This document shows, piece after piece, positions 8,553-62,802 of a stretch of DNA of 64,000 nucleotides. Under the pieces are notes generated by a model, which had not been told where the DNA came from, searched no databases, and saw only the letters and a list, made by a program, of their open reading frames with translations. The position numbers and the translations under genes are program-made. Numbering within the stretch: the stretch's first letter is position 1; every line of letters begins with the position of its first letter. Origin of the DNA: Syncephalis fuscata (taxonomy: Eukaryota > Zoopagomycota > Zoopagomycetes > Zoopagales > Piptocephalidaceae); assembly GCA_025786725.1 (NCBI GenBank), contig JAHLTZ010000003.1, forward strand, positions 372,001 through 436,000. The letters run 5' to 3'.

Positions 8553-9227
8553 GCGTTAACGTTTTAAATAATAAATAGCTACTTACGTTTTAATACAGTT
8601 AATGTGCTTTGTCAATAATATGAAACTATTGTAGCGATATTTGAGCATAGAAATTGATTGATTATTACCATGTTGTACATAAAAGTATTAATAGAAGCAT
8701 GACGATATGTAGTTTCAATCTATGGTGGAGATCATGTGTTATGATTGATGTTTGAATACAGTAATTGTAATACCAAAAAGGTAATTACAAATATCATAAG
8801 AAGTTGTTTTGCTACATCATTTATTTGCAAAAATTCTTGCTATTTCCTTTAACTAGATTTGTTTCAGCTCAACCACCAATAAGAATTTATTATAGCCACT
8901 TTTAGTAATTGCCCGTGTTTCAACTGCTGAGTTTTAATATTAAATTGCCTGGATTTAGAAATAATTTGTATGCAATACATAGTTCTTTTTGCTTTGGCTG
9001 AGCTATTGAATGTAGAAATAAATAAAAATAGCAATAATACGGAGTCATATTGGAATAGCAAAATGACAATTTATTATTAAGACCACCGCGCTTGCAGCTA
9101 TTTAAGATGCGACAAATAACCACATTCTCTAAACATTATTAACTCTACTCTCCACATACACACATCTTTCCACTTACGCTTTCTCTACCACTTTGACGCT
9201 CTTCACTACGAATAAACACTCACCACA
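8553..9227. other. Intergenic; promoter side of secreted-protein copy 1
   Basis: No gene seen. From 8839 onward the sequence is nearly identical to that upstream of copy 2 (from 11175), including a TATTTAAG element about 130 nt before the start codon. The two copies therefore share their promoters. Confidence 0.6.
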
Positions 9228-10297
9228 ATGCTTGGGTCATTTACAAAAATTTCTAGCATGATATGCATGCTAGTCATGCTGTCAAGTACAACAATGGGTG
9301 CTAACAATGGTAAATATATACATATTTGCGCGTCAATAACCTCTAACTGTGCTATAGTTCTACCTGCAGATAAAACTTTCTTCAATTCAATTAAAATACT
9401 TAAGCGAGAAAAGATCACGATAACCGCAATCAATGAGCAAGATGGCGGAGTGCCTTATGCATTAGGCAAAATCAGCCGTAGCACGTTTAGCTCTGATCCA
9501 ATTGAGATTAGATGTCCAGATAAAGCAACCGAAGCAACCGAGCGTTACATCAAGCTAACGGTATTTAAACATACAATGGTCAAACTCATTTAACTAACAA
9601 TGGATTTATAGAAATATCTGAATACATATAGTGATAGAAATATTGCACGAAACTATATTGCAGGCACACTTATGGCTTTTTCCGTCGGAAGCAGAAATTG
9701 TTTTATTACGGCAAATCCTATAGGTTCAACGCCTTTTAGATATGCGGAAAAAATGTCAACTAACGATCGGGTCACTGATTTGATTTCTTCTCTTAGAAAT
9801 ATCATTATTGCTAGAGCATACTTGGAACAAAATCAGTTGACTGATAAGGAACTGACAAATGATCACATTATCATTTCTGTCAAAAATGGCAAGCCTTTTG
9901 CCACAGTAGCCATGATTCGTCCCCTCAACGAGAAAAATGGCATGCAAATGACCTACATGAATGCCCAAGGCACAGTTCAAGTAAAGTCCAATCAGGGTTC
10001 CTGGTGTCTTGGACAAGTGCTTTTTAGAGCGCTTTTCAGTTCCCTATTCCCAATCAACTATGGTGCACCTACATTCAGTCTTGATAGCTACGTTAATGGA
10101 TTGCCAAAATCTAGAATAAGCTTCCGCTCGTCCAATACCAAGGCTAACAGAGCAAACCTTCTAAACCTATTGATAGGATTTATACAAGCATTACTGTTGC
10201 CGGATGAGAGGCGACCAAATTTTGACAAAGCATTGCAGCTTGCAACAGAGCTTAGCCTAAGTTCACGCTAAGCTAAGAAAGTAGCTACTTTAACGAT
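8839..10297 (+). repeat. Duplicated ~1.46-kb segment, copy 1
   Basis: Nearly identical to 11175-12637 (roughly ten differences by eye, mostly single bases). The unit holds about 390 bp of promoter, a whole gene and only about 25 bp beyond the stop codon. Homology stops sharply on both sides. Direct orientation, separated by about 880 bp. Confidence 0.92.
9228..10271 (+). CDS. Predicted secreted protein of unknown family, copy 1 (~330 aa)
   Basis: Not recognised. It begins with a signal peptide (residues ~1-23, ending S-T-T-M-G). Two open stretches join if a 51-nt intron (9561-9611) is removed; it has a gtattt donor, a TAACTAAC branch-like site and a tatag acceptor, and both sides are phase 0. 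The result is about 330 residues, low in cysteine, with a conserved-looking middle (around GTVQVKSNQGSWCLGQVL). Relative to copy 2 it lacks three bases between about 9391 and 9412. This shifts the frame for a few codons and then restores it (ILKRE in place of KYLSEK). Unspliced, it would stop at 9591-9593. It has no homologous neighbour other than its duplicate. Confidence 0.75.
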
Positions 10298-11174
10298 TTT
10301 GAATCAATTATTTGTAGTAATTAAAGATATAATGTAATGAGGCAACATTTTATTGTTTAAATTGCCAATAAAACTAGGCTTAATCTTTACATATTGCATC
10401 AATTATTTAATGAAAACAAAACCATTATTTTTTGCATTGGAGTAACTTTTTGTTACTAAATTGAATGAATTTTACTATTAGATTTCAACTTGGATGCAGC
10501 AATACTAGTGTGTGTTGGTAATCAATAAATTGTAAGTATATATATCGTACTGTAGTTTTTATGGTTGTGTACAATGCGTATTATAATTTGATTAAACAGG
10601 TGTAATGCCATTCAGTGATTTTGGTCCATACTTACTACAGTTTTGATTTATTCAAAATTGCTTATTATAAATTCAGTAATTCTGTTAAGATTCTGGATAA
10701 TCTTTGCCTGCATGACTAATAACAATAAAACTTTTTCATTCATGTTTAAAAAACAATTTCTTTATCGATTGATACCGCTTTTTAGCATATTTTTTATTTA
10801 ATCAATTTAAGCTATTTATAATAAATTGCAATGTTATAATCCAAATAGATGAATATTATGCACATACTGTATGAAAGTATTAATTATAATAATTTGCCGC
10901 ATTTTATTACTAAAAAAACTAGTCAGCTATGTTGCTTTTTTGTGTAATTAAAAATAGCGTTTAGAATGTGATAAATGTGTGCGCTTACAATTCATTAGTA
11001 TAAGAAGAAGCAAATAATTATAATTTTTATTTGGAATACTCGGGCACGCTTGTTTGAAAAAGTTCCCATGTTTCTTTAATTAAATTTATTCTGTTATATT
11101 TTTTTAGTGTAAGAAGCGAATAATTACGCTACTTATTTAGAATACTCGGTGCACGCTTGTTTGTAAAGATTCTC
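10298..11174. other. Spacer between the two secreted-protein copies
   Basis: No gene seen. A diverged direct repeat of about 65 bp occurs at 10998-11066 and 11108-11168, directly before duplicated copy 2. It may mark the duplication junction. Confidence 0.5.
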
Positions 11175-12637
11175 GCTATTTCCTTTAACTAGATTTGCTT
11201 CAGCTCAACCACCAATAAGAATTTATTATAGCCACTTTTAGTAATTGCCCGTGTTTCAACTGCTGAGTTTTAATATTAAATTGCCTGGATTTAGAAATAA
11301 TTTTGTATGCAATACATAGTTCTTTTTGCTTTGGCTGAGCTATTGAATGTAGAAATAAATAAAAATAGCAATAATACGGAGTCATATTGGAATAGCAAAA
11401 TGCCAATTTATTATTAAGACCACCGCGCTTGCAGCTATTTAAGATGCGACAAATAACCACATTCTCTAAACATTATTAACTCTACTCTCCACATACACAC
11501 ATCTTTCCACTTACGCTTTCTCTACCACTTTGACGCTCTTCACTACGAATAAACACTCACCACAATGCTTGGGTCATTTACAAAAATTTCTAGCATGATA
11601 TGCATGCTAGTCATGCTGTCAAGTACAACAATGGGTGCTAACAATGGTAAATATATACATATTTGCGCGTCAATAACCTCTAACTGTGCTATAGTTCTAC
11701 CTGCAGATAAAACTTTCTTCAATTCAATTAAGAAATACTTAAGCGAGAAAAAGATCACGATAACCGCAATCAATGAGCAAGATGGCGGAGTGCCTTATGC
11801 ATTAGGCAAAATCAGCCGTAGCACGTTTAGCTCTGATCCAATTGAGATTAGATGTCCAGATAAAGCAACCGAAGCAACCGAGCGTTACATCAAGCTAACG
11901 GTATTTAAACATACAATGGTCAAACTCATTTAACTAACAATGGATTTATAGAAATATCTGAATACATATAGTGATAGAAATATTGCACGAAACTATATTG
12001 CAGGCACACTTATGGCTTTTTCCGTCGGAAGCAGAAATTGTTTTATTACGGCAAATCCTATAGGTTCAACGCCTTTTAGATATGCGGAAAAAATGTCAAC
12101 TAACGATCGGGTCACTGATTTGATTTCTTCTCTTAGAAATATCATTATTGCTAGAGCATACTTGGAACAAAATCAGTTGACTGATAAGGAACTGACCAAT
12201 GATCACATTATCATTTCTGTCAAAAATGGCAAGCCTTTTGCCACAGTAGCCATGATTCGTCCCCTCAACGAGAAAAATGGCATGCAAATGACCTACATGA
12301 ATGCCCAAGGCACAGTTCAAGTAAAGTCCAATCAGGGTTCCTGGTGTCTTGGACAAGTGCTTTTTAGAGCGCTTTTCAGTTCCCTATTCCCAATCAACTA
12401 TGGTGCGCCTACATTCAGTCTTGATAGCTACGTTAATGGATTGCCAAAATCTAGAATAAGCTTCCGCTCGTCCAATACCAAGGCTAACAGAGCAAACCTT
12501 CTAAACCTATTGATAGGATTTATACAAGCGTTACTGTTGCCGGATGAGAGGCGACCAAATTTTGACAAAGCATTGCAGCTTGCAACAGAGCTTAGCCTAA
12601 GTTCACGCTAAGCTAAGAAAGTAGCTACTTTAACGAT
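11175..12637 (+). repeat. Duplicated ~1.46-kb segment, copy 2
   Basis: Partner of 8839-10297 in the same orientation, offset 2336-2340 bp. Differences are few, e.g. single-base changes near 12198, 12406 and 12529, plus the three bases missing from copy 1. Confidence 0.92.
11565..12611 (+). CDS. Predicted secreted protein of unknown family, copy 2 (~331 aa)
   Basis: The full-length counterpart of the gene at 9228. Exon 1 is 11565-11900, the intron 11901-11951 and exon 2 11952-12611, all phase 0. The signal peptide is identical and the second exon is almost identical. Where copy 1 has the displaced ILKRE segment, this copy reads KKYLSEKK, so it probably keeps the ancestral frame. Function unknown. 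I weighed a faint resemblance to rRNA N-glycosylase-like folds and did not find the needed motif set. Confidence 0.78.
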
Positions 12638-13188
12638 CTTAAATAAAATGTTGTAATAAAAAAGTAATGGTCTAGTGCCAATTATACTTTACTGCTGGTG
12701 TATTGTAAATTATCAAATTATTTATTACCTATTTATTGTAATTTAATGGTAAAATAACAAAGTTTAAAATACTCATCATAGATTTATTATCCAGTATGCA
12801 CATATAAATTGTAATGGTAACATCGCTAATTGCTATTTTACATTATATATATACTATTGTACAATAGCCATGTACTGTTCAAAAATGTTGTTTTTTGCTG
12901 CTAACTCTATTGGTTATAAATATTAACTCATATTAGTACACAATAGTAATGATATATAGGCACAAAACAATAAATATATAGCAATAGGAATTACTACGTC
13001 GTTTCCAAGTCGATGGTATATCTCCATGTTGTAGATATGCCATGATAGCGACTACTATTTCTAAATGTAATGACTTACCAACTTTCAACATAGTATAGAT
13101 ATTAATTATAACATAGGAAACTAACTTTAATCTAAGTTTAATGCTTAATAAATGTATAATAGCGCTAAATGATGGAAAAAACACGTCA
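12638..13188. other. Intergenic, secreted protein to SNF5
   Basis: AT-rich spacer between the end of the duplicated segment and the 3' end of the minus-strand SNF5/SFH1 gene. Nothing supported is seen. Confidence 0.5.
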
Positions 13189-23559: not shown

Positions 23560-24880
23560 TAAAATGAAACCATATGTTTATTATTACAAGCTTGCATAGT
23601 TGAATAGATGCAAATGAGTGCAAGCTTATTGACAATACAAGGGAATCATTAAAAGCTGAATAAACTAAAGCATTGGCTGGAACTTGATACGGGATTAGAC
23701 TAAACGACAGCTGCCAAATGATCTTGCTTTTTACCAAATATCCACCTATAGTATATTACGTTAACAATCGATTTATTCTGCCAATCCTGATGTCTTGAAA
23801 GCATTGGCTATTTTATATTTATAAATAAACGCAGTATATTTCATGTAATTGGTTTATACTCAAGTAATATACAGCGACACTTACTATCTATTAATGCAAG
23901 TTATTAGACATACGCGATACATGGCATATGCTTAATGCGTGGCTGATTGATATATAGTGGCACTTACTATCTATTAGTACAAATTATTAAACATAAAGTG
24001 TAGAACATATATTTAATGCGTAGTTAATTAATATACAATGGTACTTACTTGCTATAATTACATATTAATTAATACACCCGGTACATAGTTACATTTAGTA
24101 AATAGTTGACAAATATACGGTGTCACTTACAATCTATTAGTGCAAGTTATTAAGCGCACAACATATGTCATATGCTCGGTTTATTTTTTTTAATTGCTAT
24201 ACCATGTCACTTACGGGCTATCAATCCATGTTGTTAAAATACATAATAAATGCCATATGTTTAGTATATAGTTGATTGCTGTACAATGTTACCTACTCTC
24301 TATTAATAAAGATTATTAAACGCACACAGTATATGTTATATGCTTAGCGTATAATCGATGAATATACAATCTCACTTACAATCTATTAATACAGTTTATT
24401 GCATGTAAACAGTAAGTATGATTTATTTAGCACATAGTTGACCAATATGTAATAACACTTACTTTCTATTTGTATAATTTATTAAACAAACGATGTATAG
24501 CATGCAATTAGTACATAAACAACTAATATGCAATGGTAATTACCTCCTATCAACACAAATCATTAAGGACATATAATGAATGGTATATTATTAGTGTGTA
24601 AATAATTAATATACAATATCACTTACCCTTTATTAATACAAATGATGAAACGCACACACACGCACACACATTACATTGCATATATTTAGTGCCAGCTTAC
24701 TAATGTATAATACTACTTACTATCTATTAACATTATTATTTTAGTACAAACAATAGTTAACTAAATAAATATATAATTATTATAGCAACAACATACCACG
24801 CCGAATTAGAGCTGTCCTAGCATCCATTATGAATGCAGAGGCTGTAAAGGCCACAATAGTGATGTTGATGTTGATATTGA
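23560..24880 (-). pseudogene. Decayed micro-exon peptide gene, family member B
   Basis: Homologous to members A and C. The exon 1 remnant (about 24880-24797) keeps the hydrophobic stretch and the A-L-I-R-R end with a phase-1 gtatgt donor, but a deletion has removed the start ATG: alignment with A shows the bases around A's 1019-1040 missing. About eleven acceptor-NNN-gtaagt units follow between 24723 and 23877 at ~80-bp spacing; a 3' exon begins at 23807. One unit (near 24626-24628) has AA in place of the acceptor AG. The joined triplets give a stop after about five residues, and no cysteine pattern remains. The 3' exon aligns with those of A and C. I read it as a pseudogene. Confidence 0.72.
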
Positions 24881-27186: not shown

Positions 27187-29021
27187 ATGTTCACATGCAC
27201 TCTCACCCGGCTGACAGTAGCAACTGCTGCTGCCGTAGCGCTACTGGCCGCCACATTGGCACCCTCGGCGACTGCCTTGAGTGGCATGTGTGACAATCCA
27301 CGAACTCGTAAAGAAATTAACGATCTTTCCAGTGAAGAGCTGAAGAACTTTTTGATGCCATGCTTGCTGCTCAGAAGCGTCCAGCTCCTGACAAGCCGTC
27401 GTTCTATGATGACATTACGTATTTCCATCAAGCCTTTTCGGAATACACTCATAATTTGCCGATCTTTTTACCATATCATCGTATCATGCTTCATTATTTG
27501 GAAAAGGAGCTACAACGTATTAATCCGTCCGTTGATATGCCCTACTGGGACTGGTCGGCTGTATCTCAGTCGCCAGAAACCTCCGTCGTGCTATCACCCG
27601 AATGGTTCGGCACTAATGGCCGTGGTCCCAAGATGTGCGTTGAAGATGGCGTTTTCAAAGACTTTAAGCCTTATTTCCACGCACCCGAACATTCCGACTG
27701 TATCCATCGCCAGTACGATGGTGGCAATGTTATTAAGCCAATGCCCAGTACCGATATTATTGCTGGCCTTGTTGCCAATAGTAAGAACTGGGACGAGTTC
27801 CGCAGAGAACTTGAAGGTGCGGCCCATGGTCGAACACATAACGGTCTTGGCGGCACTATGAGTACTATGTTCAGTCCAAATGATCCAGTATTCTACATGC
27901 ATCACACCTACCTCGATAAGATCTGGTACGACTGGCAAAAGATCGATCCGGAAAAACGCGTCTATCAATTCTATGGATGGGACAGCAAAATGAACCGTGA
28001 ATCTAATCTTAATCATTTCTTGCCACAGCCATTCCCAAATCATAGAGTTGGCGATGGTATGAGTGTTCGTCACGCCGGTATGTGCTATACCTATCAAGAT
28101 CCAATTAAGGCATATGAAAAGTACAACGCTGCAGCATCGACACCAGCTACCGCAGTCCATGCTCGTCGGTCACTCGTTGAGCTTGAACGTCGAAATAATG
28201 ACTTGGGTGTAGAAATGGTAGGCACCGCGTATAATGGCCCACCATCCGGTACCGACCGTCGTTTCTTGACTGTACTCAGTCCTCCAGAACCATTACCAGA
28301 ACACTGGATTCTTATGATGGGTGGTAATGTTACCGAAACACGTATGCAGGAACGTCGCACCGCACGTATGTGTGACCAGCTTAACCGTGTCGAAGGCTAC
28401 ATTTCACCATCAGCACTATGGTATCAACAAAGAGCTTTGGAAAAACTAGTTGTCTCTGAAGAAGTGTTCTACGTCTACATTAATGGCCGCTTGGCTAAAG
28501 TGTCGAATAATGGTATTAACGAAACTACCAGTAAGCTTTCAATTACAGAGCGTATTTCCCGCATCAAATTCTCGTTTAAACAAGCCGGTCTCCGTATTAT
28601 TAATAGTATTCGCGAACGTGCTCGTGCTTTGCGTCGCATTATCGGCTGCGGTGTTAATCGTCTTATTAACCGATTCGAAAGTGCAACCAAGAAGATGACT
28701 AAGAAGGTGACCGATAAAGCCAAAAGCATATTCGAGAAGACGAAGAGCGCTTTGTTCAAGCATTTCGACGTAAAATCGGCCGATCTGAAATTCATTGGTA
28801 ATACTGCGCCAGTATCCACCAAAACAACAACGTCACTTATTAACCAGACTTTGCCAAAGCTGCCGGTAAAAGCTTGCGACAAAAAGCAGAAGATATCAAC
28901 AGAGTCGAGCATTTTAGATATGCCCACCAGCTCGGCTAAACAAAGTGTTTCAGACAAAGCAACAACTACTCTACTTGATTACAACAGTAATGGCCCAAAA
29001 ACTGCCACTTATATCGTCTAA
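27187..29021 (+). CDS. Secreted tyrosinase 1 (type-3 copper oxidase), one-base frame slip
   Basis: Tyrosinase/polyphenol oxidase, oxidising phenols to quinones, likely for melanin or wall cross-linking. The start ATG at 27187 leads an Ala-rich signal peptide. CuA: histidines in YFHQ, YTHN and FLPYHRIMLHYLE. CuB: HGRTHNGLGGTMSTMF and SPNDPVFYMHHTYLDKIWYDW. The C-terminal extension has the motif N-R-V-E-G-Y-I-S-P-S-A-L-W shared with its paralogues, then a basic amphipathic tail. Intronless. After about 56 codons the frame slips: the T run at 27349-27353 has five bases where six would restore the paralogues' N-F-F-D-A. The rest (27360-29021) is open for over 550 codons, so a homopolymer error is more likely than decay. 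Confidence 0.93.
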
Positions 29022-29954: not shown

Positions 29955-30612
29955 ATTTAAACAATAAATGTAACACACTATTTGATTTTATTAAAACATT
30001 TGAGGCTGCTTATTGTTGTTGTTGGTCATGTATAGAAAGATTAATCAAATGTTAATAAAAGCCATTGATTGCAATTCCATATCGTTCCGTAGTTGTTGTT
30101 ATTGTTGTTACTACGTACAGTATGGTTTTTTGCGTCTGAATGGTCTCTTTTATTTTCCAATCTTCTACTGTTGCATTTTGGGCATATTTGCAATGTAAGA
30201 TACTTGTCTATGGTGACAAAAAGGTAGAATGACTAGTATTTCTGATGTTCACCATTGTCTTGAGCATTCTTGATATCAACTTGGTAGGCGCAGTTTATTT
30301 GCCGACCATTGATGAAGTAAATGGTCTCCATCATATGCAATAATAATAGGCTAAGTGTCTTTATAAGGAAGATCTGTGGTGATAGTTGTAACCAGAATAT
30401 ACGGCATGCCGTTGAGATTACTTGAACAGGTGTTAATGTAAAATAAGAGAAATAAAGACCAGGGATTGAATAATACTATTTATTGCTGTTCAAATACGCA
30501 TGCTATTTATATTGATATATTTGGCATTATTGTATAATATATTACTAAATAGAACAATAAATAGCAATAGGAAAAGAAAGTGAAATGAGTAAATAAAAAA
30601 TGTGGGGGTCAA
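29955..30612. repeat. Dispersed ~655-bp repeat, copy 1
   Basis: Nearly identical to 38281-38939 in the same orientation (offset ~8326 bp), with a few single-base differences and indels. On the minus strand it holds short coding-like stretches, among them a zinc-ribbon-like C-P-K-C (near 30165-30180), but no intact frame. Probably a mobile-element relic of unknown class. Confidence 0.85.
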
Positions 30613-31651
30613 ATTAAAAATAATTTAATCATGCAAATATTACATGCTCAATCCGATGTTTTATTTCATATGTAGCTATACAACTTTTATTAATGGGCAA
30701 TAAATAAAAATAATCCACCATTTTCTCATTGCAATAATGTATAATATTAGCTGCTTATTTTGATAAATAATTAAATTAAGCATTATACGAATTGATTTAG
30801 TCGCGGTCGTAAAGTGCGAGTATATGAGAAGTTACGATGTAATTATAAATTATCGGTACAAACAACTGAGATTATAAATTATAACAACAATAGTAACTAT
30901 TTAATTACTAAAACTTGTTAATTCAATTCTATTTACAACTCTGTTTTCTGTGCATTATCTCGGCTTAACGTTGCCGCCGTTTTGGTCGCATCAGAAATAA
31001 TCAACTTCTTGGCAAACACAACTCAGTTCAGCATAGCTATAATAATTTGCTATAGGTTAAACTAGTAGGCCTTTGAGCTGCCGATTGTTTTTCCATTGGT
31101 TTCTGCTTTGATTTTTCTTTTATCTTCCATTTTGCTTAACTTGTTAAAATTAATTTTTAAAAACGCGGACAGCATTTAGGCCTTAGATGGTTACTAATTG
31201 ATATTCAATTCACAGTCACTATGCATTCGAAATTGCCGATATTTGCCGAGCTATTTGATGTGTCTAATCTAGTGTCTGCATATTGTATTGTATGTAATTT
31301 AGCCGATGCAATTTAGTTTACAGCTATGATTAATATTTTTTAAAACTGGTGTTAATTACCATATTTTATTATAATAAAAGTATTACAGAACAAGAAAGAT
31401 AAAATATAGTTTAGCAATTAGATCAGGTTGCGAAGTGTGGGCACTTTTTGTGTGAGATTGTGTGTAAAGACGTTTTGGATTAATTAGAATTATCCATAGA
31501 TGGTGTTAAGGGCGTAATCAGAGTATTATTGAATATTACACTGTTGTACCCATTTACTTCTCCGCCTCTTTCGTAGCTAAACCACTGGCAATTACTGGTT
31601 GCGCACGTCTTTTCAAATATGTTGTAATCGTTGATTCGTATTGCCATCTAA
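30613..31651. other. Gene-poor region before the LINE relic
   Basis: AT-rich; no gene, RNA or repeat supported. Confidence 0.45.
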
Positions 31652-33304: not shown

Positions 33305-35886
33305 ATGAAGCTTTCCATTGCCGCCGTTTGCACTATTCTCGTGGCTTTTGTGGCCAGTACAGCCATGGTAGATGCTAAACCAGCCTTAGTTCGCCGTGGT
33401 ATGTTTTAATAACAATAAATATGCTATAATATCTTGCTTACTAACAGTATTGCTAACTAATAATCATAATAGGTCGTAAGTTGTATTTATATTAACTAGC
33501 TAATTACTGATTATATGCATGCACTGTGTTTATCAATAACTTAATACTAATAGTCGGTAAGTGATATTATATATTGATAGATTATACATTAATTCTATAC
33601 CATGTATTATATATACCGACAACTTAATATTAGAGGAATGTAAGTTGCATTATATACCAATCAATTACTTACTAATTACATATTATGCACTATGTGTATT
33701 AATGACTTAATACTAATAGGCTGTAAGTAGCATTATATTGTTAATTTATAAATTAATTATATACCATGTATTGTGTGTATCAACAACTTAATATAATAGG
33801 GGGTAAGTTATATTGTATATTAATTGAATATTGGCTAATTTTATACCATTCACTATGTATATCAACAATTAATACAATAGCATGTAAGTTATATCCTAAT
33901 TAATTAGGCATTGGCTAATTATATATTATCTATTGTGTGTATCGTTAACTTAATATCAACAGGCAGTAAGTAACATTGTATACTAACTGACATACATTAA
34001 CTGTGTCATGCGCCATGTTTCAACGACTTGATATATTAGTGGGTAAGTAGCATTGTATATTGAATGACCATGCACTAATTATATACCATGCACTGTGTGT
34101 ATCAATAACCTAATATTAATAGATGGTAAGTTGTATTGTAAATGAACTAATTATTCACTGATTATATCCATGTACTGTGTATCAACAACTTAATATTAAT
34201 AGAATGTAAGTTATATTGTATACTAATTGAGCATTGACTAACTACATATCGTGTATGTGTACATCAATAATTTAATATTAATAGGCAGTAAGTTATATTA
34301 TATGTCAACTGACTATACATTAACTATGCTATTTACTATGTACATCAATAACTTAATATAATAGCTAGTAAGTGATATTATATATTAATTGTCTATCCAT
34401 TAACTATGCTATTTGATTTTATCAATTTTTAATATCTAACAGCCAGTAAGTAATATTATATATTAATTAATTATACAATAATCATATAATATTTACTAAT
34501 TGTACCAATTATTTAATATTAATAGTTTGTAGGTTATATTGTATATTATTTGACTATATATTAATTATGCAATTTATTGGTTGTATCAATTATTTAATAT
34601 TAATAGATAGTAAGTTGTATTGTATATTGAATGACTATACATTAACTATGCTATTTACTAATTGTACTATTTAATATTAATAGCTAGTAAGTGATACTAT
34701 ATATCGATTGACTATACATTAACTGCTATTTACTGATGATACTAATTATTTAATATTAATAGCTGGTAAGTAGCATTGTATATTAACTAACTATACATTA
34801 ACTGTTATTTACTGATTGTGCTGACTATTTAATATTAATAGCTGGTAAGTGATATTGTATATTAACTGGCTATACACTAACTATATACTATGTACTATAT
34901 GCATCAACAATCTTATTAATAGAGTGTATGTAAAAATTTGTATTGTTATGTACTAATCACATCCTATTTACTGTATGCATTAATAACTTAATATTAATAG
35001 GCAGTAAGTTTTATTTTGTATTAAATGGCTATACACTAATCATATGTTATTTACTGATTGTACCAATTATTTGCTATTAATAGGGAGTAAGTAACACTAT
35101 ATATTAACTGACTATACATTAACTATACTATTTACTTATTGTACCAATTATTTAATATTAATAGAAAGTAAGTTGTATTGTATATTAATTGGCTATAAAT
35201 TAATTATGCTATTTGCTGATGATACCAATTATTTGATATTAATAGATAGTAAGTGATATTTTATATTAATTGGCTATCTTAACTATGCTACTTACTGATT
35301 CTACCAATTATTTGATATTAATAGATTGTATGTATAATTTTGTATTAATTGACTATGACTAATCACATACTATTTACTGTGCGCATCAACAACCTTTTTA
35401 ATAGACTGTATGTAAGAATTTGTACCAATTGGCTATACTAATCATATACTATTTACTATGTATATCAACAATTTAATATTAATAGGCGGTAAGTTGTATT
35501 TTATAATAACTGACTGTCTAATCATGCTATTTATTAATTATACCAATTATTTAATACTAATAGCGAGTAAGTTGTATTGTGTATTAATTTTTTAATTACT
35601 AATTATATACCATGTACCGTATCCATTAACAAATCAATATTAGAGCAATGTAAGTTTTATTATATATCAATTAACTACGTATTAACTACATGCTGTATAC
35701 TATATGTATCAACAACTTAATAATAGGTCGTAAGTAATATTGTACATTAACTAATTACTCATTAACCACATGCTATACACTGCGTATCAACAACTTAATA
35801 TTAATAGGCAGTACGTAGCACTGTATATTAATGGCAATGCATTAATTATATGGTATATAATATCTTTATTTGTAAATACAGAATAA
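33305..35886 (+). CDS. Micro-exon cysteine-rich secreted peptide precursor, member C (64 aa, 32 exons)
   Basis: Exon 1 (33305-33398, 94 nt) encodes a signal peptide ending M-V-D-A-K-P-A-L-V-R-R and stops in phase 1 at a gtatgt donor. Thirty micro-exons follow (28 of 3 nt, two of 6 nt). The last exon begins at 35882 and its TAA is at 35884-35886. All 31 introns are 71-80 nt. Total coding length is 195 nt (64 codons plus stop) in 2.58 kb. The joined mature part after R-R, a Kex2-like site, is 33 residues, begins G-L-E-E-C-W-A-C, ends C-R-K, and has six cysteines: C-x2-C-x3-C-x8-C-x5-C-x3-C. The inner pattern CxxxC-x14-CxxxC resembles alpha-hairpinin folds, which is only a suggestion. A role as effector, antimicrobial or signalling peptide is unproven. 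No one-base slip is present. A retained intron would usually bring a stop; skipping any micro-exon keeps the frame. Confidence 0.88.
33473..35810 (+). other. Array of 30 micro-exons at ~80-bp spacing
   Basis: Micro-exon first bases: 33473, 33554, 33634 (6 nt), 33720, 33800, 33881, 33963, 34040, 34123, 34203, 34285, 34365, 34443, 34526, 34607, 34684, 34763, 34842, 34923, 35001, 35084, 35165, 35246, 35325, 35405, 35486, 35564, 35644 (6 nt), 35727, 35808. Each is preceded by an acceptor of type TTAATAG/TAATAG/CAACAG and followed by GTAAGT. Exceptions are GTAGGT (34529), GTATGT (34926, 35328, 35408) and GTACGT (35811). Introns resemble each other along their length (TTAACT/TATACATTAACTATGC...ACCAATTATTTAATATTAATAG), so the array grew by tandem duplication of an intron-plus-one-codon unit. 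All splits are between codon bases 1 and 2. Confidence 0.88.
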
Positions 35887-36180
35887 TCGATGGTTCAAAA
35901 TTAGCATTGGTAGTGCAATCAAACTACTATCCATACACTTTAGGTATATATTCGGTGAAAAGCAAGACCATTTGACAACTACGCCGTCCAGTCTATTTAT
36001 ACATCAAGTTTTGGCCAATGCTCCGGTTTATCCAGTCTTTAACCAATAAAATTATTATTTTATCAACAAGCTTGCAATCAGTTGTTTCTATTCAACTGTG
36101 CAAGTTTATAGTAATAAATTTATGGTTTTATCTTAACTATACAATCAAATTGCTATATCTATAACCATGTTTTATTTGCA
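35882..36180 (+). other. Conserved 3' exon (mostly UTR) of member C
   Basis: Only the first five bases are coding. The following ~290 bp align without large gaps to the minus-strand 3' exons of A and B, including CAAGACCATT, a GCCAATGCT block and an AGTAATAAATTTATGG end that may carry the polyadenylation signal. A different frame stays open from 35882 to about 36046, but the micro-exon frame does not use it. Confidence 0.6.
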
Positions 36181-38280: not shown

Positions 38281-38939
38281 ATTTAAACAATAAATGTAAC
38301 ACACTATTTGATTTTATTAAAACATTTGAGGCTGCTTATTGTTGTTGTTGGTCATGTATAGAAAGATTAATCAAATGTTAATAAAAGCCATTGATTGCAA
38401 TTCCATATCGTTCCGTAGTTGTTGTTATTGTTGTTACTACGTACAGTATGGTTTTTTGCGTCCGAATGGTCTCTTTTATTTTCCAATCTTCTACTGTTGC
38501 ATTTTGGGCATATTTGCAATGTAAGATACTTGTCTATGGTGACAAAAAGGTAGAATGACTAGTATTTCTGATGTTCACCATTGTCTTGAGCATTCTTGAT
38601 ATCAACTTGGTAGGCGCAGTTTATTTGCCGACCATTGATGAAGTAAATGGTCTCCATCATATGCAATAATAATAGGCTAAGTGTCTTTATAAGGAAGATC
38701 CTGTGGTGATAGTTGTAACCAGAATATACGGCATGCCGTTGAGATTACTTGAACAGGTGTTAATGTAAAATAAGAGAAATAAAGACCAGGGATTGAATAA
38801 TACTATTTATTGATGTTCAAATACGCATGCTATTTATATTGATATATATGGCATTATTGTATAATATATTACTAAATAGAACAATAAGATAGCAATAGGA
38901 AAAGAAAGTGAAATGAGTAAATAAAAATGTGGGGTCAAA
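38281..38939. repeat. Dispersed ~655-bp repeat, copy 2
   Basis: Second copy of 29955-30612, same orientation. The two copies bracket the LINE relic and member C. The ends lack an obvious TG...CA pattern and the interior shows no LTR-element genes, so LTRs are unlikely. Confidence 0.85.
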
Positions 38940-39134
38940 GTATAGTAGTCCCAAACACTAATATATTAAGTAATTGTATTTATTAAATGATAGAAGTATT
39001 CAAATAAATGACCGTGTTATTAAAAAACGTATCATCATTAAACAACTTTGACATAACTCATGTGTATCCATTGTATTTAATCAACGATATAGGCTTATAG
39101 CTTTTGTGCTATGATCCATCTATTGGATTTAGAC

Positions 39135-40764
39135 TCAATTGCCAGTATATTGAGAGATAAACGCCTTTACTTCATTGGCCGATGGTACTGTAATGTTCTT
39201 ACCCGTAGCCGATTGAATAGCATCCTTGGCCTTAGATACAAGCTCATTGATCGAGACACCACCATTATAGCCTTGAATCATTTGCACTGCATCGGCGCCA
39301 ATACGTTTGACTAAATCAGATGTATCAGGAGAAGTCTTACAAACTGAACTACTTGGTCGCGAATCTCTTTCACAGCCGCCAATGGATCTTCACTGAATTT
39401 GACAGGAAAATTGATTTGCTTGCCATCCAAATAGCCAACAAACTCCTTAGTTGTCTTAATCAGCTCACTAAGAACATCTGGGCGATTGAAAAGAGCGGAT
39501 TTCGAAATATAACCAGGAATGCCATTTAGCACTTTGGTCAAGTTGACATTGCGTTGCCAGTAATATTGAGTATCCGAGTAGGAGATGTTATTCATCTTGC
39601 ACCACCATTCAGGTGTTGCCTTTGGAACACGAATACCAAGTATATTGGTACGGTCCGAACCATCTGGTGTCAAGTAAGCAAATGGATCTTTTTGCTCCTG
39701 TTGCTTTTTGCAGCCACACTGTGTGCTATTGCTTGATGCTGAAACAGTTGTCGTTGCTGTTTGGTTGGCAGCTGGAGCCGCAGCATTGTATTCACGACGA
39801 CGAAGAATCACCTCGACAGCACGTCGCAGCAAATTGCTGCCCATATCGCCAAGATCATCGTTACCCGATGCATCTGGTACTGGTGCATTTTTAACAGCTG
39901 CTGTCGCCTTATTCATATTGCTATAGGTGTAGCAGTATGGATCGGCCTTGGTATTGAATGTAGCACTAGCTTGGATGTTCCATGGAACAAGCATTTCGCT
40001 GGAAGCGGTTGGTCCATAGTCATTCTGATGGCCAAGAGCCTGCCATTCTGCCCAGTGTTTATCGACGAGCGAGTGATGCATCCAGAATACAAGATCGCTA
40101 GGCGATGACATGTGTGAAAATGATGCACCAATACCGTTGTGGACACGTGCATGTGCTGTGCCTTCATAGCCGCGTCGAAAAGTGTCATAATCCTTGGCTG
40201 ATGACTGCAGTTCAGCTACAAATTCTGAACCGTAAAATGCACCAAGCTGGTCAGTTCCTTTTCCATCAAATGCACGTGAGAAGCAACTGCCTTTTGTTGG
40301 GTAATATGGTCGATAATCCTTGAACTGACCATCAGTGACACATTGGCTACTGCCTTTACCATTAGTACCGAACCAGTCGGCACGGAAGATGGTGTTAACT
40401 TCGGGCGCTTGTGAATCGGCCGCCCAGTCCCAGTATGGTAAAGGAACGCTGGTACCACGTTTCTGAAATTCTGATTCAAACTGGCGAAATATTCACGATG
40501 CCATGGTAAAAAAGCAGGAACGCCGTGGGCTTGTGACGAATATGTAATGTGGATATTGATGAATTCGTCATATTTATTCGGCTGCGTCTCTGCCTGCATT
40601 TTTTTAATAGCATCAAAGAATGATTGGCGATCACTATCGGACAATTCACGAATTTCACGACGAACATTAATGGTTTTGCAATCGGCCTCTACATGCTGAA
40701 CACCGATGCTAGACGCTAAAATAATGGTGGCCGTTGCGGCCAACAAAGCAAATAGATTCTTCAT
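39135..40764 (-). CDS. Secreted tyrosinase 2, two one-base frame slips
   Basis: Type-3 copper oxidase like tyrosinases 1, 3 and 4. The start is at 40764 with a clear signal peptide; then C-K-T-I-N-V-R-R-E-I-R-E-L, the common N-terminal motif of the set. CuA: NIHITY, QAHGVPAFLPWHREYF. CuB: AHARVHNGIGASFSHMS and SDLVFWMHHSLVDKHWAEW. The C-terminal extension has WWCKMNNISYSD and GIPGYISKSALF. One base is missing in the A run at 40478-40480 (plus strand) before the conserved P-L-P-Y-W-D-W, and another near 39345, after which the frame runs to a TGA at 39135-39137. Intronless. As both slips are single missing bases in otherwise well-kept sequence, assembly error is as likely as decay. Confidence 0.9.
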
Positions 40765-45220: not shown

Positions 45221-46957
45221 ATGCGCTTTTTTATTAAACAAGTGGTGGTGCTTGGCGCCATTGCTAGCGCTGCTTTATTCGGACGCTCAGACGCCAAATG
45301 CCAGGAAATCCGTGTACGTCGAGAGATCCGTGATTTAAACGAAGATGAATTAAATATGTTTATTACGGCCTTAAGAAGCATTATGTTTAACGCAAGTCCA
45401 AGTACTTTCGATAGCTTTTCCCATCTACATTACATAAATAGTCCTAAGGCCCATAACACACCGGCTTTCTTGGCCTGGCATCGTAAATTCATACTGGATG
45501 TAGAGAACGAGATAAGAAAGAATCACACAGATTTCGTTTTGCCTTATTGGGACTGGACATCTGAAGCTCAAGCACCCGAGTTGTCACCCATTTTGTCAAA
45601 CAGCTATTTTGGCAGTAATGGATATGGTGACAACAAATGCATCCAAGATGGCCCATTTAAAGATTTTGTACCGCATTACACTCAATACTATAAAGGCTGC
45701 CTTGCTCGCGACTTTAACAACAATAACACTTATGTCGGCAACACAATTACACCATTCTACACCCAGGAACAAACAGTCAATTTACTGACTAAGCATGGTA
45801 ATTTTGATGATTTCTCATCCCGTTTGGAAGCCGTGCCACATGCTTATGTGCATAATGGCATTGGTGGCGGATTCTCTACAATGAACAGCCCAAATGATCC
45901 GCTATTTTACATGCACCATGGATTTTTAGACAAATTATGGGCCGATTGGCAAAACACGTATTCGAATGTTACGCATCCACTAGGCACGATTATTAAGCCG
46001 GACTATTTGCTTGAACCATGGAATGTAACTGCTGGATCAATGTTATATACCGTTGACGACTTGTGCTATCGTTATGCTAATCCTACGGCTGCATATGCCA
46101 ATAAAACTCAAGAGCAGCCACAGCAAATGAACAATAAGCTACGACGACGCATGCCAAGCTATTCGGCCGTTGCACAGCCTCGTTTCGGTGCCAATAATGA
46201 CGAAACACCGGTAGCACCTCGTCCTTCTACCTCTAATAATGAACAAGCCTATAAACCTCTAGCTATGGACCGTGAAGATTTGACCAAGCTACGTGCACCA
46301 TTGCCAATTTCTGAATCATGGTGCAAGATGAATCGGCTCAATATTACACGTGTGCGCGAGTATGAAAGCGAGGAACGTGAATTTATTCAGAAGCTAAACA
46401 AAATCCCCAACTACGTATCTCCATCAGCTTTATGGAATAAGGACGACTCGATGAAGAAGCTAGTAGCCACTGGCAAAGTCAAGCAATTTTCGGCTTACGT
46501 TGACGGTAAAAAGGTAGTGGTACCTGTAACAGCTGGCAGCAATCCCACCGATGCTGTGGCCCGCACTAGAAACACGCTACTTCAATCTGGTCTTCATATT
46601 CTTAGTCCTAATGAAATGGTCGCCAATCTTCAAATGATTATTGGTGATGGTGTCATTAAGAGTTTGGACAGTCTTTTGGGCAATACACCTATCCTGGGTG
46701 GTCTACTTAATGGCGGTCTACTTGGCGGCGGCAATAGCGACAACGCGTCAAACAAAGGTCTACTAGGCACCGGTCTACTTGGTGGTGGCAATGCAAATAA
46801 ATCACGTGGATCGACCAATGCTGACATTAATGTAGATGCCAGCGTTGAAGCCAATGCTAAAGCATCTACATCTTATGGCCGTGGACAGTCTACAGATAAC
46901 AACAAAGCCACCCATAGCTCATCGGGTCTCCTGGGCGGTCTTGTGAAGCTTCGTTGA
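45221..46957 (+). CDS. Secreted tyrosinase 3 (578 aa, intact)
   Basis: An uninterrupted 578-residue tyrosinase: signal peptide to about residue 25 (...R-S-D-A-K), then C-Q-E-I-R-V-R-R-E-I-R-D-L. CuA: SHLHYINSPKAHNTPAFLAW then HR; CuB: PHAYVHNGIGGGFSTMN and SPNDPLFYMHHGFLDKLWADW. It also has L-P-Y-W-D-W and, in the C-terminal extension, ESWCKMNRLNITRV and KIPNYVSPSALW. The tail (about residues 485-575) is Gly/Leu/Asn-rich with repeated L-L-G-G-G units, unlike the other three. The start ATG at 45221 follows an AT-rich leader. It is the reference for judging frame slips in tyrosinases 1 and 2. Substrate unknown; extracellular phenol oxidation is likely. Confidence 0.96.
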   Translation: MRFFIKQVVVLGAIASAALFGRSDAKCQEIRVRREIRDLNEDELNMFITALRSIMFNASPSTFDSFSHLHYINSPKAHNTPAFLAWHRKFILDVENEIRKNHTDFVLPYWDWTSEAQAPELSPILSNSYFGSNGYGDNKCIQDGPFKDFVPHYTQYYKGCLARDFNNNNTYVGNTITPFYTQEQTVNLLTKHGNFDDFSSRLEAVPHAYVHNGIGGGFSTMNSPNDPLFYMHHGFLDKLWADWQNTYSNVTHPLGTIIKPDYLLEPWNVTAGSMLYTVDDLCYRYANPTAAYANKTQEQPQQMNNKLRRRMPSYSAVAQPRFGANNDETPVAPRPSTSNNEQAYKPLAMDREDLTKLRAPLPISESWCKMNRLNITRVREYESEEREFIQKLNKIPNYVSPSALWNKDDSMKKLVATGKVKQFSAYVDGKKVVVPVTAGSNPTDAVARTRNTLLQSGLHILSPNEMVANLQMIIGDGVIKSLDSLLGNTPILGGLLNGGLLGGGNSDNASNKGLLGTGLLGGGNANKSRGSTNADINVDASVEANAKASTSYGRGQSTDNNKATHSSSGLLGGLVKLR

Positions 46958-60535: not shown

Positions 60536-62802
60536 TTAAAATAGATTCAATGCAAGTCCTAAAGAAGATAGTAGTCCATTGGTTGGTTTAGCGGCCAGTG
60601 TGTCTGCATCTGTATCTGTACTAGTGCCGACACTGCTTGCTAAAGTATCTACTATCTCGTTTTTGCTTTCATTTTTTATATTATTTGGTGAATCGAGTCC
60701 AGGAATAAGCGTATCAACTGTGTTACTTAGTGTTTTGCCTGCATCATTAATAGTATCCCCTACAATGGGCATATTCTTTGTAACATCTTCGACAATAGTT
60801 AGTGTTTCTTTTGTCACATCACCTAGTAGTTTTACAGGGGCGAGTAAATCGCCCGAACGTATACGCTCTACTAAACTGGATGGCGATAGATAACCAGTGA
60901 GCTGATTGACATCATTGATAACACGTCGTAGTTTGGCTTCTTCCTTGCGTACACGGTTCGCCGAAAGCTTATTCATCTTGATCCACCAGTCAGGTAACGG
61001 TCGTGGCTGTCGAAGACCAACTAGATTATCGCGATCGGTGGCTTGAATGTTTATTTGTTTTTTTGTATTGCTTGCTTTTTGATTAGCAATAGCTGTTAAT
61101 TGGTCGATTGATAATAAATGACTATCCATTAGTGCAGTGCCACTGTTGTTAGTACTGTTACTATTATTATTATTATAAGCAGCAGTAGCAGCAGCAGTAT
61201 CAGATGGTGTTGAGCGACGTACAAGTCGCACTTCATCCAATTCGGCTAATAAATCATCGTCATTTTCTACATCATCGGTCTCGGCTGTATTCCTGCTTTC
61301 AAATGGCTGGCGATTACTAGGGAAAAAGTCATTGTCATTTCGCTGGTCGTTAGAACGGCGGTTCGTATTTTCTTCATTGTGATTATTATTCATATTTGGT
61401 TCGTCCCAAAAGTCTAGACTTTCTGGTATTGATCGGCTAGAGAAGTTGCGGATTGGTCCACGCGGTCTATTAAACATAGAGCGCATATTTGATCGTGGCG
61501 GTCTTTCTGACATTATTGATTCGTTGGGCATGGTCAAACTTGGTGGCAGAGATCGTTCAAAGTTGCCTACACGCGGGCTAGAGAGGCGGCCACCTGGTGT
61601 TGGACGACCAGGAACCCAAGTGCCGGGAAGTACGGGCCGTCTACCTGAACGAAGCGATGGCGGAAGCGGTACGCTGTTTCTTGAACCGTGCATCGAGTCA
61701 TTTGGCGAAAAGCGGAATGGCGGTGTTGAAGTGCCCGACGAGGAACGTGGCGTTGTAATAATGCCAAGTAATCGTCGTCGAGCCGAAGCAATCGAGTCAT
61801 CGTAACTGCCAGTGTCATAATTGTAGCACAATACGCGATGATTTAATACGGCTCGTACAGGTAGACCCCAAGGTGACATTCGATCATTGGGCAATGCCTC
61901 ACGATCATTGTCATCGTCGTGGCCGCCATACATAGCCAATCGGACTTCTGGACGAGCAATTTGCCAATCGGCCCACATCTTATCCATAAAAGAATGGTGT
62001 ACCCAAAACAGTGGACTATTATGGTGTTAGCTTAGAAATAAGGTGTTGCTGTTCATTGCGACTTACTCATTTGGGCTTGTCATGCTGCCCATATCGCCGC
62101 CAATGCCCATGTGGACAACGCCATGGGGTGGTCCTTCCATTGAGTTCCAGAATCCTTCAAACGTATTCTCATCCTGTTGAATGCTTAACAATGCTTCGGG
62201 GGCATAAAGTGCAGCAATATCGGCCTTTTCGTTAAATGATCGCTGTAAGCAGCGACGTTCTGGCACAAATACCGACCAGTTGGCAAATCGGCCATTGGAT
62301 ACACAATTGTCATCGCCTTCGCCGTTACCACCGTACATTTCATCACTGAAAATAGGTGACTGTTCTGGTGATTGTGAATCAAGTGACCAATCCTATACAA
62401 ATATGATATTATTGTTATTATTGCTATTGGTTATGTAACAAAGCATTTTCTTACCCAATAAGGAAGTGAAACGCTAGAATCCACTCTTTGTAGAGCAAGT
62501 TCAAAATCACGAATAAATTTACGATGCCATGGCAGAAAACTTGGGACGCCATGGGCAATATCCGTGTTGTCTAAGTGTACCTGTACAAAACGGTCATAGA
62601 TCGATAGATCGCCATCTCGACGACGTTTTAGCTCAAGAACCGCGTTGAAAAATCGATCCTGGTCACCACGAGATAGCTTGCGAATCTCTCGTCGAATACT
62701 AGGACGCATACACGTTTGCGCGTCGACTTGTGACGAAATGATTGTGGCCATCAGTAGGCACACGGACGCAAGTCGTCCAAACCACTGCAAATCACTCAGC
62801 AT
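60536..62802 (-). CDS. Secreted tyrosinase 4 (two introns, long C-terminal insert)
   Basis: Starts at 62802 with a signal peptide (to about residue 28, ...S-Q-V-D-A-Q-T-C). CuA: VQVHLDNTDIAHGVPSFLPW then HRKF; after intron 1 (about 62393-62453) DWSLDSQSPEQSP; CuB: PHGVVHMGIGGDMGSMTSPN, intron 2 (about 62014-62068), DPLFWVHHSFMDKMWADW. The C-terminal region carries a Pro/Arg/Ser-rich, then acidic and Asn-rich insert (about 61750-61130) before the shared DWWIKMNKLSANRVR and TGYLSPSSL motifs. No frame slip. It is the only one of the four tyrosinases with introns, so it may be the oldest, or the others may derive from an intron-less copy (inference). Confidence 0.94.

Follow-up and report, generated by a model that had tools for sequence, protein, structure and literature searches.

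A gene of the fungus Syncephalis fuscata (Zoopagomycota, Piptocephalidaceae) appears to encode its putative mature peptide in an array of exons that are almost all a single codon long. The gene lies at positions 33305–35886 of a 64,000-nt stretch of genomic DNA (the window), and its anatomy, its family, the evidence for its reading frame and its unit-wise evolution can be read directly from the DNA. Stepwise splicing of about 30 introns probably yields a secreted, disulphide-rich peptide that is diversified codon by codon through the exchange of units. We also lean, with some reserve, towards a wider claim of a new gene organisation: single-codon exon cassettes genome-wide (~3,900 by extrapolation), where a conserved intron is repeated and the exons between its copies vary. 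Under this claim, recombination between introns would alter peptides by one or more residues without frameshift, and splicing might additionally yield combinatorial sets of peptides from each gene.

All parts of the window gene lie on the forward strand. Exon 1 (33305–33398, with the ATG at 33305) encodes MKLSIAAVCTILVAFVASTAMVDAKPALVRR, by eye a putative signal peptide with a short pro-region ending in R-R, and ends in phase 1. The first intron (33399–33472, 74 nt) belongs to a conserved intron family of its own. Direct reading and a chain search then place an array of 30 inner exons at 33473–35810, of which 28 measure 3 nt and two measure 6 nt. The 3-nt exons start at 33473, 33554, 33720, 33800, 33881, 33963, 34040, 34123, 34203, 34285, 34365, 34443, 34526, 34607, 34684, 34763, 34842, 34923, 35001, 35084, 35165, 35246, 35325, 35405, 35486, 35564, 35727 and 35808; the 6-nt exons are AGGAAT (33634–33639), immediately before the first cysteine, and AGCAAT (35644–35649). 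Introns measure 71–80 nt and the acceptor-NNN-donor units are spaced about 80 nt apart. After the last intron (35811–35881, 71 nt), the last exon (35882–36180, the end being that given by the sequence-only reading) finishes the final codon with AA and continues with the stop TAA (35884–35886) and a 3′ UTR common to the paralogues, intronless ones included. Joined after the dibasic site, the exons predict RR followed by GLEECWACMDECTTIYTTAECRKNNYCAKQCRK and the stop, with cysteines spaced C-x2-C-x3-C-x8-C-x5-C-x3-C directly after R-R. The sequence-only reading had arrived at the same 30 units, at inner exons in phase 1 and in multiples of three, at a stop at bases 3–5 of the last exon and at 33 residues with six cysteines after R-R; the frame-ruled chain search and the joined exons bear all of this out.

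The chain search used position weights for acceptor and donor, trained initially on the 3-nt units of the window, and a mild penalty on exons longer than 3 nt. Run without a frame rule, it reads 35644–35649 as a 4-nt exon, CAAT, which is compatible with the splice signals but shifts the reading frame; the frame rule restores the 6-nt reading. Two other scoring variants stop one unit earlier, at 35808, giving a 29-exon parse. We favour the 30-exon model because the intron at 35811–35881 is closer to the last introns of the paralogues (likeness 0.76) than to inner introns (0.64). A 6-nt exon at the third place also occurs in seven of nine genes listed unit by unit (L028, L029, L031, L049, L050, L058 and L059, where L numbers denote fetched paralogue loci) and is absent from the other two, L056 and L057.

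Genome searches place the window gene in a large family. Among 192 candidates for the signal exon, 40 scored copies are 88–100% identical; a two-part pattern of this exon gave 73 matches, and a 20-base pattern of its start gave 172 (control, 0). The strict unit TTAATAG-NNN-GTAAGT occurs exactly 1,992 times, and its reversed control once. Acceptor-donor spacings of 1–2, 4–5 and 6 nt gave 16, 7 and 6 matches (controls 16, 4 and 2): the 3-nt spacing is exclusive genome-wide and the others are near background. The strict unit captures 473 of 918 parsed 3-nt exons, and an equal share elsewhere would extrapolate to about 3,900 single-codon exons in the genome, perhaps in a hundred or more genes of some 30 units each; the longest arrays reach 49 units. 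Of 39 paralogue loci fetched, 36 have an array starting after exon 1 and three are intronless. The matching paralogues of which the sequence-only reading had spoken thus prove to be a genome-wide family, and the two other arrays in the window look decayed. Both lie on the reverse strand: a decayed array at 23820–24800, and a short, partly decayed member at 440–1020 that keeps a signal exon with ATG and about five units, by eye with no cysteine. Within the window, the intron profile matches nothing outside the family's own three arrays (30 and 14 hits).

An intronless member and the joined window peptide, used as protein queries at a sensitivity reaching relatives that share 5-residue words, matched only S. 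fuscata proteins (BDF19DRAFT series). By eye, no joined array peptide is identical to any of the eight deposited proteins obtained, so the parsed arrays seem to be unannotated. One deposited protein, P0003 (111 aa, contig C1), has a similar signal and a cysteine-free tail containing lysine and histidine, so that other mature peptides may be preceded by this signal exon as well. Unit arrays at about 267.7, 276.1, 470 and 520 kb of contig C2 have no loose signal-exon match nearby; they are either diverged members or another family built on the same array.

The loci comprise the window gene and the 39 paralogues: 33 could be parsed through to the last exon and three are intronless. The other four went unparsed, three of them cut by contig or fetch ends and one lacking a recognised 3′ motif. 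Without a frame rule, 986 of the 996 inner exons in the 33 parsed genes, as predicted from DNA, are 3 or 6 nt long (935 and 51), so that the coding sequence consists mostly of tiny symmetrical exons divisible by three, as in micro-exon genes. When the frame rule is applied and GC donors are allowed, 27 of the 33 genes are free of stops before the last exon, and stops or a frameshift interrupt L021, L022, L023, L039, L045 and L049. Excluding two short decayed genes (L022 and L023), the remaining 31 hold 174 cysteines and seven stops in 1,060 codons. Three stops (L021, L039 and L049) interrupt the array, and four (L036, L043, L044 and L047) fit genuine ends built across the last junction. Because codons straddle exons, shuffling the exon order provides a fair null. 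In 5,000 trials on the same 31 genes, shuffled arrays gave 91.2 ± 6.6 cysteines (maximum 114) against the observed 174, and 61.9 ± 5.8 stops (minimum 44) against the observed seven. For the window gene alone, in its 29-exon parse, at least six cysteines and no stop occurred together in 0.0018 of 50,000 shuffles. Exactly six cysteines are found in 16 of the 27 uninterrupted genes, and 2, 4, 5, 7, 8 or 9 in the rest.

Base composition, splice signals and divergence are further lines of evidence. The G+C content is 45% in triplets and 23% in introns, and a GTAAGT donor follows 818 of the 918 parsed 3-nt exons. Once permitted, GC donors make up 19 of 1,025, and double-length introns drop from 15 to three; 12 of these 15 contain a unit with a GC donor or another weak signal, which restores the array. 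In 12 closer pairs of genes, splice-site bases diverge by 0–4%, and intron bodies by 0.6–10.7% in 11 pairs and 16.8% in L024/L025; for the window gene and L031 the values are 6% for splice-site bases and 20% for intron bodies. Signal exons differ by 0–3.2% in 11 of the 12 pairs (5.2% in L056/L057), triplets by 0–57%. These divergences and the cysteine counts follow a conotoxin-like pattern of conserved prepro region, variable mature peptide and fixed cysteines. That the micro-exons are coding, as originally proposed for the window gene, is supported by the family-wide frame and cysteine statistics, the exclusive 3-nt spacing, the conservation of splice sites and the existence of intronless homologues.

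The intronless members L042, L046 and L053 have the same signal, R-R, six cysteines each, and the 3′ UTR of the array genes, with a likeness of 0.89–0.92 to their nearest array genes; L042 additionally has the stop context of the window gene. The eight deposited proteins included a fourth uninterrupted cysteine-rich member, BDF19DRAFT_449406 on contig C212. Upstream of the ATG, L042 and L053, and L046 in pieces, match array genes to the fetched edge, 407–500 nt away, and L046 is also homologous to them for about 2 kb downstream. Since the upstream homology runs to the fetched edge, the intronless members are DNA-level relatives of the array genes. A plain mRNA retrocopy was rejected as their origin, the upstream match being unlike a cDNA pasted at a new site; cDNA conversion of a copy, or an ancestral state, remain. 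If they arose by cDNA conversion, they would be fossil evidence that a full array was spliced exactly. Trees of the upstream and 3′ flanks disagree and leave the polarity of intron loss undecided. Pfam returned no family above cut-off for two intronless members (TIL in L046 at 15.6 bits against a gathering threshold of 24.5, no family in L042). In the PDB, a sequence search matched 8erw_A (C2HR4_8r) at E 0.0003, although no single stretch passed, and there was one match at E 2; we take this outcome as chance.

The introns record how the arrays change. First and last introns form separate conserved families and the inner introns a single one; the first intron of the window gene has a mean divergence of 0.15 to other first introns and of 0.36–0.45 to the next 13 intron positions. 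Inner introns at the same place are most alike mid-array (0.21) and diverge by 0.25–0.31 near the edges. Within a gene, neighbours are closest, with divergence of 0.240 at lag 1 and 0.274 at lag 8, and whole blocks, codons included, are duplicated in L051 (lag 10), L025 (lag 11) and L054 (lag 13). In eight of 13 pairs with array introns less than 0.13 apart, triplets are 2.6–5 times more divergent than introns; triplet and intron values are 0.304 versus 0.063 in L028/L029 and 0.522 versus 0.106 in L028/L031. The five closest pairs, with ratios of 0–1.7, have no clear triplet excess.

Two pairs display the changes in detail. L058 and L059 are identical over 500 nt upstream and differ by 3.8% across the 3′ UTR and by 0.3% beyond it; the first 14 and roughly last nine units are near-identical, and most of what lies between has been replaced in introns, codons and unit number. 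L028 and L029 likewise have a replaced central block, with 0 of 497 positions different upstream, 1.7% across the 3′ UTR and 1.5% beyond it. For triplets whose two flanking introns are nearly identical (both within three differences), the count is 114 identical out of 123, plus six with one changed base and three with two; unit exchange, rather than selection, may therefore account for much of the triplet excess. Randomly chosen units would differ by ~0.72 in triplets and ~0.21–0.29 in introns. Block-wise exchange of units seems to be the main event, and selection favouring change and opposing cysteine loss likely acts in addition, not cleanly separable from exchange. In distant pairs, changes correlate hardly more strongly within codons (0.05–0.14) than across codons within exons (0.01–0.09), and close pairs show no difference between the two. 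L058 lies on the 21.8-kb contig C58, and L059, with its identical upstream 500 nt and differing array centre, on C2; L021 (C245) and L026 (C66, 20.9 kb) are also identical for 500 nt upstream and contain unaligned stretches of 454 and 147 nt. These small-contig copies may be alleles or haplotigs, in which case the block changes would be allelic.

Nine array introns of 484–502 nt in eight genes (L027, L032, L039, L040, L044, L045 with two, L054 and L058) hold an insert of about 410 nt, whose position within the intron repeat is always similar and whose orientation is always the same. Target-site duplications of ~15 nt, exact in some cases and decayed in others, flank the inserts, which by eye resemble a tRNA-derived SINE in reverse orientation; ARAGORN found no tRNA in the six of the eight insert-bearing loci that were scanned. 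In six genes (L027, L032, L040, L044, L054 and L058) the joined frame is open despite the insert. The second intron of L032 (890 nt) contains a different, longer insert of ~800 nt that is T-rich. In the window, a 664-bp direct repeat (98.8%) flanks the array gene, with both copies on the forward strand (29955–30616 upstream and 38281–38942 downstream), and similar DNA occurs in about 10–13 of the 39 fetched loci. We considered the gene as cargo of an LTR-type element and rejected this, as the repeats by eye lack the usual LTR ends and similar DNA lies downstream of other members. Elsewhere in the window, 8821–10320 and 11157–12659 form a recent duplication (98.7%, ~1.5 kb) with a 199-aa open frame, and tyrosinase-like open frames lie near the array gene at 27360–29021, 39311–40764, 45221–46957 and 60536–61987, one confirmed as PF00264 and the others judged by eye.

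Other readings of the arrays have to be weighed against these data. Being true tandem repeats of ~80 nt, the arrays might be a non-coding minisatellite whose consensus merely includes splice-like motifs and whose variable part is the triplet. However, the cysteine and stop statistics hinge on which exon is joined to which, the G+C content of triplets is twice that of introns, intronless homologues exist, and 6-nt exons and GC donors preserve the frame; the exon-order shuffle rejects a non-coding satellite, which we regard as exceedingly improbable. A coding array could have originated in a different way, with a contiguous cysteine-rich gene broken by many phase-1 insertions of one mobile intron, tandem duplication being secondary and the intronless genes ancestral. 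Membership of all inner introns in one sequence family and the common framework of the intronless members agree with such an origin, as does the position of L046 and L053 outside the array genes in upstream and combined trees, both midpoint-rooted. Yet introners are near-identical introns in many unrelated genes, and in the window, the stretch scanned, the intron profile has no copies beyond the three arrays of the family. Adjacent introns are more alike than distant ones, blocks are duplicated along with their codons, L042 nests among the array genes (weakly, the trees conflicting), and every third base as an insertion target would be extraordinary. We consider this origin unlikely.

The triplet excess in eight of the 13 close pairs could also reflect a dedicated mutational mechanism that replaces triplets, rather than ordinary recombination and selection. 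Exon changes are rich in transversions, with 116 transitions among 310 changes compared with 1,452 among 2,039 in introns (ten overlapping pairs), and in L028/L029 two triplets are changed next to introns that differ at 0, 0 and 2 positions. But changes cluster in blocks where the introns differ too, and the excess is about that expected from exchange of random units; special whole-triplet swapping is unsupported where both flanks are near-identical, triplets there being mostly identical as well, and we judge such a mechanism very unlikely. A more plausible variant, though still less likely than not, concerns the products: the array may be transcribed and variably spliced, with any unit skippable in frame, so that each gene would produce mixed peptides as in schistosome micro-exon genes (MEGs). 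Each unit runs symmetrically from phase 1 to phase 1, its splice sites resembling those of the others, and exon skipping in schistosome MEGs is reported in PMC4015677. On the other hand, the prevalence of exactly six cysteines among uninterrupted genes points to one main product, and a window-gene transcript lacking the entire array would encode no more than R-R and a single residue before the stop.

The reading we prefer is a secreted peptide made by stepwise splicing; we infer the splicing and its order, as well as secretion, processing and function of the peptide. Exon 1 would provide a signal peptide and a pro-region closing in a Kex2-type dibasic site, and the mature peptide would be assembled from single-codon exons in phase 1, across codon borders, between copies of one ~78-nt intron. 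As a 3-nt exon can hardly accommodate the splice complexes of both its sides simultaneously, intron removal would have to proceed in succession. The simplest order would be 5′ to 3′, in the manner of recursive splicing: with every step the growing exon would gain one triplet, and the GTAAGT donor that follows would become usable. Intron definition is suited by the strong donors, the narrow range of intron lengths and the conserved 3′ end; a U1 search found one gene above cut-off. The array would evolve as a coding minisatellite, in which recombination between repeated introns duplicates, deletes or replaces intron-plus-codon blocks. Through such unit exchange, residues could be added to peptides, removed or replaced without disturbing the frame, and selection would maintain the cysteine framework. 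Syncephalis species are obligate parasites of Mucoromycota fungi. The products are likely diversifying disulphide-rich peptides in the contact of the mycoparasite with its fungal hosts, an effector or antifungal role being a guess from lifestyle and variability.

In design, the nearest known systems are schistosome MEGs and aphid bicycle genes. Schistosome MEG exons are several codons long and do not form arrays of one repeated intron, whereas almost every exon of the S. fuscata arrays is one codon. Aphid bicycle exons are also much longer than one codon, and we know of no 78-nt intron repeat in these genes. The protein searches found no sequence homology to either group, only S. fuscata proteins being matched at their 5-residue-word sensitivity. 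According to PMC9168663, bicycle genes resemble the S. fuscata arrays in being putative effectors that evolve fast and contain an unusually large number of small exons; an aphid megacycle gene carries over 100 micro-exons. Exons no longer than a codon can be spliced elsewhere: PMC8831610 and PMC8042270 list isolated 1-nt or 3-nt cases in plant APC11 and VPS55, Drosophila TnT and mouse Ncam, the 1-nt exons being verified in plants (PMC8831610) and the 3-nt exons reported from Drosophila and mouse (PMC8042270); these are single exons inside ordinary genes and not arrays. PMC8831610 also describes conserved GTRAGT donors in VPS55 and interprets intronless copies of APC11 as intron loss mediated by reverse transcription. 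Among fungi, the micro-exons of Trichoderma Xlr2 and S. pombe are single regulatory ones, unlike the S. fuscata arrays, and fungal micro-exons are termed little characterised in PMC11121469.

That an array of single-codon exons had not been described in fungi agrees with the literature matches listed, none of which describes one, subscription literature lying mostly outside their reach; the literature naming S. fuscata is, by title, on other subjects. Conotoxin superfamilies combine a conserved signal, a pro-region with a basic cleavage site, a variable mature peptide and a fixed cysteine framework. The S. fuscata peptides resemble them in way of working only, with no homology claimed, and to our knowledge conotoxin genes have no single-codon exons. 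The arrays raise the question of how a spliceosome handles thirty successive 3-nt exons faithfully, and whether introns can be retained for turning codons into cassettes that are open to exchange, speeding up the evolution of a parasite's peptides. They also suggest that ordinary gene prediction may miss such a secretome. If true, one amino acid per exon across a mature peptide would be the most extreme gene fragmentation known to us.
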